Shown here one piece after another: positions 43,181 to 52,540 of a DNA stretch of 64,000 nucleotides. Within the stretch, counting starts at the first letter, position 1. Every line of letters starts with the position of its first letter. The DNA is taken from NCBI GenBank assembly GCA_902571335.1, contig CACGBT010000005.1, forward strand, positions 1 through 64,000, written 5' to 3'. This DNA comes from an uncultured Prochlorococcus sp. GTDB lineage: Bacteria > Cyanobacteriota > Cyanobacteriia > PCC-6307 > Cyanobiaceae. A model generated the notes under the pieces. It was given only the letters and a program-made list of their open reading frames with translations, did not search any database and was not told the DNA's origin. The translations under genes were made by a program, and so were the position numbers.

Positions 43181-43335
43181 TGTTAAGGATTTTGGTTTCT
43201 AATAAGATAAATTAATTTAAAACTTATCTTCTCAGTATTTATACTTATAAAATTAAAAAAAATCTTTTTAATACAAGCATTTGCAGCAATATTTACATAC
43301 TAATAAATTATCTATTACAACTTGTTAGTTATTTA

Positions 43336-43361
43336 AAAAAAGTGGAGTCCTTCCAGACTCC
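43336..43361 (-). terminator. Rho-independent terminator of ssrA
   Basis: On the minus strand a six-base-pair stem (GGAGTC/GACTCC, 43344-43349 with 43356-43361) with a six-base loop is followed by CA and a run of seven T (complement of A at 43335-43341). It is the best terminator in the window and ends the tmRNA precursor. Confidence 0.85.
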
Positions 43362-43615
43362 TCGTATCATTTGGTTGATAAGGCTGATATAACCCCATCT
43401 CCTTTAGGATCAAGCAGCAACTGGTGCTGTTTGACGGGAGAAACTAACGATTTTGTTAGCATTTGTGTTTTTGCTCTAACCGAGCCGGCTTCAGTCACCT
43501 TCCTTATGCCCCGTCGAAACCATTACAACCCCAAATAGTGGAGTTGAGCGGAATCGAACCGCTGTCCGAAACATCGGTTGAGATCACCTAGTCCAATTGG
43601 ACATTTATATTCTGA
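43342..43615 (-). ncRNA. ssrA: Circularly permuted two-piece tmRNA
   Basis: Rescues stalled ribosomes and tags the nascent peptide. Read on the minus strand the order is permuted: first the tRNA 3' half, with T-arm (AGCGG stem, TTCGATT loop, CCGCT) and acceptor strand CAACTCC plus A73 at 43539, then only six bases (43538-43533), then the 5' half GGGGTTG from 43532 with TTTCGAC following. The two acceptor strands pair over seven positions with G3-U70, the alanine identity pair. No CCA is encoded. The resume codon and tag frame (43460-43410) encode ANKIVSFSRQTAPVAA then TGA. The 5' boundary of the precursor (about 43615) is uncertain; a hairpin TGTCCAATTGGACA lies near 43595. Confidence 0.93.
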
Positions 43616-43662
43616 CAGGCAAAATGGTTATTGAATAGTTTTTTTACTAAGTTTTATCGTAT

Positions 43663-44787
43663 ATGAATGTAGTGGCATCATCTCCGGAAGGACTAGAGAA
43701 ATCTTTAGCAGAAGAAATTTCAAATTTAGGCGGTTTTAATATTAATACTTATAAAAGATTTATTAATTTTGAATGTGATTTTGAAACTTTTTATAGAGTT
43801 CATTTCTATTCCAGATTAGCTTTTCGTTTTTATAGAGAAATTGCAAGTTTTAATTGCTATGACAAGCAATCTTTATATGCGGGGGTTAGAGATTCATTTG
43901 ATTGGTTAAATTGGTTGCACTTTGATAAAACGTTTAATGTTCAAGTAACTGGGAGAACATCTTCTTTAAGTCATACTCATTTCACTGCTCTTGAAGTAAA
44001 AAATTCTATAACTGATTTGCAACAGGCAGTTTGGAATAAAAGATCAAATATTTCACTAACTAATCCTGATTTTATAATTCATCTGCATTTAAATAATAAT
44101 AAAGCAATTCTCAGTCTTCAAAGTAGCGTTGAAAGCTTACATAAAAGAGGCTATAGACCCGCAATTGGAAATGCTCCATTAAAAGAAAATTTAGCTTCTG
44201 GATTGATAAATATGACTCAATGGAATGGCAAAGTTCCCTTAATAGATTTTATGTGTGGCTCAGGAACTTTTTTAATTGAGGCAGTCAACCAATTCCTTGG
44301 AGTTCCCATAAATATTGATCAAGTATATCTTTTTGAGAATTGGTTGGACTTTAGGAAAGATATTTATCTTAATGAAAAAAATAAGGCAAAAAATAAAATT
44401 ATAAATTATGAAAAATTACCAACAATAATAGGGTGTGAAATTAATAAAAAGGTTTTTGAGCAGGCGAATGTAAACATATCATTAGCTGGACTCGAAAATT
44501 ATATTGAGCTTATAAATAATGATTTTTTAGCACTCCAATTAAGTTGCACACCTGGAAAAATCATATGTAATCCTCCATACGGCAAAAAATTAGGCGATGA
44601 AAATGAATTGATTTGTTTATATGAACAAATGGGAATATTCCTAAAGAATAATTTTTCAGGTTGGGAATTTTGGCTGCTAAGTGGAAATCCAAAACTAACA
44701 AAATATTTGAAAATGAAATCTTCATTGAAAATTCCTGTTAGTAATGGGGGGATAGATTGTAGATGGATAAAGTATTTAATTAGGTAA
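43663..44787 (+). CDS. THUMP-domain RNA methyltransferase, RlmL N-terminal type
   Basis: 374 residues: N-terminal ferredoxin-like/THUMP part (about 1-160), then a Rossmann methyltransferase with DFMCGSGTFLIEA (SAM loop, near 190) and the NPPYGKK catalytic motif near 305. That is the layout of the RlmL N-terminal half, which makes m2G2445 in 23S rRNA; older annotations call it an N6-adenine DNA methylase, which is unlikely with THUMP. The start is ATG at 43663, 48 bases from the tmRNA start on the other strand. Confidence 0.83.
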   Translation: MNVVASSPEGLEKSLAEEISNLGGFNINTYKRFINFECDFETFYRVHFYSRLAFRFYREIASFNCYDKQSLYAGVRDSFDWLNWLHFDKTFNVQVTGRTSSLSHTHFTALEVKNSITDLQQAVWNKRSNISLTNPDFIIHLHLNNNKAILSLQSSVESLHKRGYRPAIGNAPLKENLASGLINMTQWNGKVPLIDFMCGSGTFLIEAVNQFLGVPINIDQVYLFENWLDFRKDIYLNEKNKAKNKIINYEKLPTIIGCEINKKVFEQANVNISLAGLENYIELINNDFLALQLSCTPGKIICNPPYGKKLGDENELICLYEQMGIFLKNNFSGWEFWLLSGNPKLTKYLKMKSSLKIPVSNGGIDCRWIKYLIR

Positions 44788-52458: not shown

Positions 52459-52540
52459 TGCGGACGGCGAGACTTGAACTCGCAAGGCCGAAGCCACACG
52501 CTCCTTAGACGTGCGCGTCTACCAATTCCGCCACGTCCGC
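52459..52540 (-). tRNA. tRNA-Leu, anticodon AAG
   Basis: Minus-strand tRNA of 82 bases: acceptor GCGGACG/CGTCCGC with A73, D-stem GCG/CGC, anticodon stem CACGT/GCGTG with loop CTAAGGA, a class II variable arm with a GGC-TTCG-GCC hairpin, and T-arm GCGAG-TTCAAGT-CTCGC. U33 precedes the anticodon and G37 follows, as for CUN-reading leucine tRNAs. Position 34 is A. No CCA encoded. Confidence 0.95.

Follow-up and report, generated by a model that had tools for sequence, protein, structure and literature searches.

An ordinary six-base linker in a permuted tmRNA gene, of known cyanobacterial type, from an uncultured Prochlorococcus

Background

How would a transfer-messenger RNA (tmRNA) be matured from a gene in which the two halves of its tRNA-like domain stand in reverse order and only six bases apart, and is so short a join a peculiarity of the genome that carries it? 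The question is raised by a locus on the minus strand of a 64,000-nucleotide stretch of DNA from an uncultured Prochlorococcus sp. (contig CACGBT010000005.1, positions 1-64,000), which was analysed as a whole and is referred to here as the window. An earlier note on this DNA had placed at 43342-43615 a permuted tmRNA gene of the two-piece type and had singled out the shortness of its join. We find that the gene belongs to a type already known and that it is an ordinary member of this type with an ordinary linker, which is useful to know.

Results

Read along the minus strand, the T-arm of the tRNA-like domain (AGCGGTTCGATTCCGCT, 43547-43563, recognized from sequence and Rfam structure), the 3' strand of the acceptor stem (CAACTCC, 43546-43540) and the discriminator base A73 (43539) are followed by the linker CTATTT (43533-43538), which is predicted to be removed, and by the 5' strand of the acceptor stem (GGGGTTG, 43526-43532), whose G1 is the predicted start of the coding piece. 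The 3' tRNA half thus lies ahead of the 5' half, and A73 is not followed by an encoded CCA. ARAGORN calls a permuted tmRNA (tmRNA*) at this locus, and the Rfam model RF01851 (cyano_tmRNA), the covariance search that the earlier note had proposed, matches 43618-43345 on the minus strand over its full length (model positions 1-288; 299 bits, E-value 1.3e-86, gathering cut-off 70 bits). RF04321 (tmRNA_permuted) matches 43588-43410 on the same strand with 142.2 bits. By RF01851 and ARAGORN the gene (ssrA, acceptor piece first) thus spans 43345-43618, so that the locus of the earlier note was right and its ends were off by three bases. Its other structural statements, namely the permuted order, the six-base join without encoded CCA and the intact tag, are all borne out by the DNA. 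The tag reading frame with its stop (43460-43410) is present after the resume codon and yields ANKIVSFSRQTAPVAA, as in the ARAGORN call; the identical tag occurs in 110 of 209 tag readings from related loci. The two strands of the long helix that joins the pieces lie at 43567-43588 in the acceptor piece, as placed by Rfam structure and covariation, and at 43493-43513 in the coding piece, as placed by Rfam and the alignment described below.

We consider it very likely that this is a chromosomal ssrA gene of the known cyanobacterial, circularly permuted type, whose transcript would be split at the six-base linker to give two RNAs, one with the acceptor and one coding for the tag, and these would re-pair as a working tmRNA. 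What can be read from the sequence itself is the gene order, the acceptor stem with its G3-U70 pair, the T-arm, the covarying inter-piece helix, the tag frame and a terminator-like end. That we are dealing with a decayed or non-functional copy, for which no evidence emerged, is hardly conceivable, given the full-length match at 299 bits, the pairs kept among relatives and the intact tag, and given that this is the only RF01851 match in the genome (87% complete), which also encodes SmpB (PF01668, 191.7 bits).

But is a join of six bases short by the standards of the genus? Linkers of exactly six bases were found in 168 of 266 same-genus genomes by exact pattern, and the permuted pattern with a linker of 0-30 bases in 213 of the 266; of 37 same-genus genomes searched with RF01851, 34 scored above its cut-off. 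Among the matches listed for the genus the linker of the window, CTATTT, is the commonest, and lengths of 5, 7, 9 and 10 bases occur as well. The genus is taken to be Prochlorococcus-like since this linker and contigs of the genus turn up in records named Prochlorococcus (for example L116 and G011:C28). In genus g79 of the same family all six loci have a linker of one of these lengths, four of them with five bases and two with six, and in genus g61 the linker has six. Sampled linkers in the remaining 28 of the 30 other genera measured have 8-68 bases; single six-base rows were obtained for genera g53 and g68 as well. Among viral copies, four named cyanophage records show a linker of five bases and the uncultivated viral contig L181 one of six. 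A pattern for linkers of 0-4 bases matched in 4 of 400 genomes of the family, in each case by chance within a longer linker. The first linker pattern missed 16 loci, 11 of which are true genes and were recovered by a looser pattern. Hence six bases are the ordinary length in this genus and not a special device, and five bases are the shortest linker seen. With this, the main point of interest of the earlier note, that the join stands out, falls.

One could still see in the join an unusual derived trait, peculiar to this genome and in need of a special processing route, since it is shorter than the loop of the Rfam cyanobacterial consensus and shorter than any linker sampled in 28 of the 30 other genera. 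However, the count within the genus has already refuted the claim of rarity, five or six bases recur in g79, g61, the single rows of g53 and g68 and the cyanophage copies, a genome outside the family has a linker of seven bases that even includes an encoded CCA (L256), and the literature on permuted tRNA genes records linkers of 5 bases and even of a single base (PMC3978253). We regard such a trait as very improbable.

Two side observations concern the distribution of the gene. Five genomes that are 93-99% complete (G425, G432, G449, G106 and G225) gave no RF01851 match, whether by assembly gap or by loss. The cyanobacterial locus outside the family, L256 (G048:C1:2366030-2366924), has the linker CCAACTC and the tag ATNNVVPFARARATVAA; its host genome G048 is a single contig of 4,659,019 bases.

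The predicted structure was examined in an alignment of 67 distinct genes, comprising the window gene, relatives from the same and from other genera and five cyanophage copies. Linkers of up to 20 bases were taken, genes with longer linkers and loci L061-L180 were left out, and the pairs counted were those of Rfam plus A73/U-1. Pairing occurs in 90.6% of cells as compared to 31.2-50.3% in slid controls. Pairs changed on both sides number 31 of 66, against 12.2 in shuffles (standard deviation 2.0; 0 of 500 shuffles as high), and further pair types number 71 against 64.0 (2 of 500 as high). The gene call itself is far beyond chance. Helix 4, the T-arm, pairs in 100% of cells, and the inter-piece helices do so in 99.6% (helix 2) and 97.6% (helix 3), with both-side changes in 7 of their 17 pairs; covariation is also seen in helix 5. 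In one acceptor pair (columns 83-113) GC, AU, CG and UA all occur, and the G3-U70 wobble, the known alanine signal, is invariant (67/67). The minimum-energy fold of the window gene alone contains the acceptor stem and the T-arm (z -2.45).

Where would the precursor begin and end? A predicted -10 element (TATTCA, 43632-43637, minus strand) lies within the block CTATTCAAT, which is unchanged in all 60 distinct upstream regions compared; these come from close relatives picked by the motifs CAACTCCA..GGGGTTG and CAGAATATAAATG. The element would put the start at about 43622-43628, and transcription probably starts near 43625. At the other end (43334-43361, minus strand) the terminator scan, the fold and the last Rfam stem coincide on an intrinsic terminator-like hairpin, GGAGTCT-GGAA-GGACTCC, followed by ACTTTTTTTA; the scan found one terminator where 0.2 were expected. 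At least five T follow the last hairpin in 43 of the 60 close relatives and in 107 of 205 loci of a wider set, and the transcript probably ends in this T-run, near 43335.

The genome holds the genes that processing of such a precursor would call for, namely those for the RNase P RNA (255.4 bits) and the RNase P protein, for RNase Z (383.2 bits, cut-off 292.95) and for two members of the poly(A) polymerase/tRNA nucleotidyltransferase family. The best model for one of the latter is A-adding and for the other CCA, both well under the curated cut-offs, which suggests, without proving it, separate A- and CC-adding enzymes. The base that follows A73, the first of the linker and here numbered 74, is without exception T or C in the 211 loci that have a linker. 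Since these loci include some genomes twice, distinct linkers were counted as well: base 74 is a pyrimidine in all 106, whereas 32.7% of the bases inside linkers are purines. None of 31 sampled genera has a purine at this position, for which a simple binomial gives about 5e-6, a figure overstated owing to relatedness. Of 31 same-genus loci measured, 21 have C here. The genome's own tRNA genes (31 of 32 tRNA matches used) likewise have a pyrimidine at 74 in 31 of 31, and 30 of the 31 encode no CCA. The lone gene that does, L238, is of the initiator type, with C as its first base and a mismatched first pair, as is usual for initiator tRNAs.

Discussion

These data fit a pathway in which a single precursor would run from near 43625 to the T-run near 43335 and the linker would cap the acceptor stem, the predicted fold pairing A73 with U-1 and leaving a loop of five. 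RNase P would cut just before G1. The cut by tRNase Z would fall behind A73, or one base further so that C74 is kept, and the two tRNA nucleotidyltransferase-like proteins would complete the CCA. Alanyl-tRNA synthetase would then charge the acceptor piece by way of G3-U70, and the paired pieces would, together with SmpB, rescue ribosomes that have stalled and append the tag. The acceptor end looks like the CCA-less tRNA ends of this organism, which by analogy supports a tRNase Z cut after A73, and in our judgement the earlier note was probably right to propose tRNA-end enzymes as the processors.

It had also considered an exonuclease. In such a route RNase P would cut at G1, the linker would then be left as an ordinary 3' trailer of six bases, and an exonuclease might trim it back to give the 3' end of the acceptor RNA, tRNase Z taking no part. 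That the base behind A73 is always a pyrimidine, as in the tRNA genes examined in this genome, speaks indirectly for tRNase Z, and we think the exonuclease route unlikely. As to the exact site of a tRNase Z cut, work on the Synechocystis RNase Z is said to have found that C at 74 shifts the cut by one base, in which case C74 could be kept. A survey of tRNase Z reports that C74 inhibits the enzyme most as part of CCA (PMC3161902).

Several observations weigh against the two-piece reading of the locus or against parts of it. Helix 7, a hairpin of the coding piece in Rfam, pairs in just 50.9% of alignment cells, and several of its pairs are not formed in most of the 67 genes. Of the 67 genes, 56 have A-U at A73/U-1 and 11 have no pair there, with no compensating change, and the tRNA genes of this genome often have T at -1 as well (20/31). 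The inter-piece helix is missing from the single-sequence minimum-energy fold of the window gene. A sigma-70 scan found no promoter on the minus strand here, so that the -10 element is a prediction only. Which enzymes process the transcript, and in what order, is inferred. Finally, according to a 2018 review, Prochlorococcus tmRNA had not yet been analysed experimentally (PMC6202907), contrary to Northern blots of 2005 in which it appears as two separate molecules, the legend naming MIT 9313, SS120 and MED4 (Axmann et al. 2005, PMC1242208). If the blots are followed, the single uncut RNA that the earlier note had named as the contrary outcome is contradicted in other Prochlorococcus strains, though the review differs. 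The ssrA RNA is also reported to be long-lived in Prochlorococcus, over 20 min (PMC2897979).

How does the gene compare with known systems? The two-piece tmRNA of Prochlorococcus and marine Synechococcus was reportedly treated by Gaudin et al. in 2002. The literature searched, outside which this key paper lies, yielded nothing on how long the linker of cyanobacterial tmRNA is or on its base 74, and we make no claim of novelty. With the RF01851 two-piece tmRNA of these genera the window gene shares gene order, structure, tag type and the lack of an encoded CCA (PMC1242208); no difference that defines the family sets it apart, its six-base linker being the norm of the genus. Circular permutation and a two-piece product are shared with the permuted tmRNA of Alphaproteobacteria and Betaproteobacteria, which a 2025 tmRNA database, with 11,946 unique permuted genes, merges with the cyanobacterial form in RF04321, noting that the CCA position does not encode CCA in every case (PMC11915505). 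The RF04321 consensus has CCA and a longer linker, whereas the window gene has neither. The permuted tRNA genes of algae and archaea resemble it in placing the 3' half first, with a linker between the acceptor strands, and in C. merolae the CCA is not encoded either; RNase P and tRNase Z have been proposed as their processors (PMC3978253). Unlike the tmRNA, which stays in two pieces, these tRNAs are religated through a circular intermediate. Their intervening sequences are given as 1-74 bases in the same 2014 review, which leaves open how a very short one is removed (PMC3978253).

Two modest leads are a possible lower limit of five bases and the pyrimidine rule. As a tentative idea, which we hold to be somewhat less probable than not, the linker may be a minimal processing cassette under selection: it would have at least five bases and would have to begin with a pyrimidine for tRNase Z to act. 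The C that usually stands first in this genus would stay on once the cut is made and supply the first C of CCA, the CC-adding enzyme then adding one C only. If true, the streamlined picocyanobacteria of two genera and cyanophages would have converged on the same limit of five to six bases, set by RNase P and tRNase Z acting on one common capped acceptor stem.

Two-piece tmRNAs in phages were already counted by a 2022 survey (PMC9004378). The viral contig L181 (IMGVR_UViG_3300025889_004673) carries at 768-1010 on its minus strand a permuted cyanobacterial-type tmRNA gene (159.3 bits) with the tag ANNIVSFRRTAVAV and the linker CTTCAT, which also occurs in Synechococcus sp. 8F6 (L138); the contig further contains a tRNA cluster and long frames that, judged by eye, resemble NrdA, NrdB and primase. 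The Synechococcus phages S-SSM7 (L248:1979-2281), Sf-FS3 (L249:1952-2241), S-CAM1 (L250:1961-2229) and S-CAM3 (L251:1961-2230) hold permuted genes of the same type (109.4-143.3 bits). These four are without tmRNA annotation in the stretches fetched, and two of them, S-SSM7 and S-CAM3, have a hypothetical protein annotated across the gene. In a search of 50,697 phage records by DNA, 14 matched the window gene and 16 the gene of Sf-FS3.

Divergent from the tmRNA gene, a methyltransferase gene of 374 amino acids (43663-44787, plus strand) resembles the first half of RlmKL with 309.3 bits, under the cut-off of 466. It starts 44 bases from the tmRNA match, so that a short promoter region is likely common to both genes. 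Further along the window, at 52459-52540 on the minus strand, lies a tRNA-Leu gene with anticodon AAG, whose A at the first anticodon position is unusual in a bacterial leucine tRNA.
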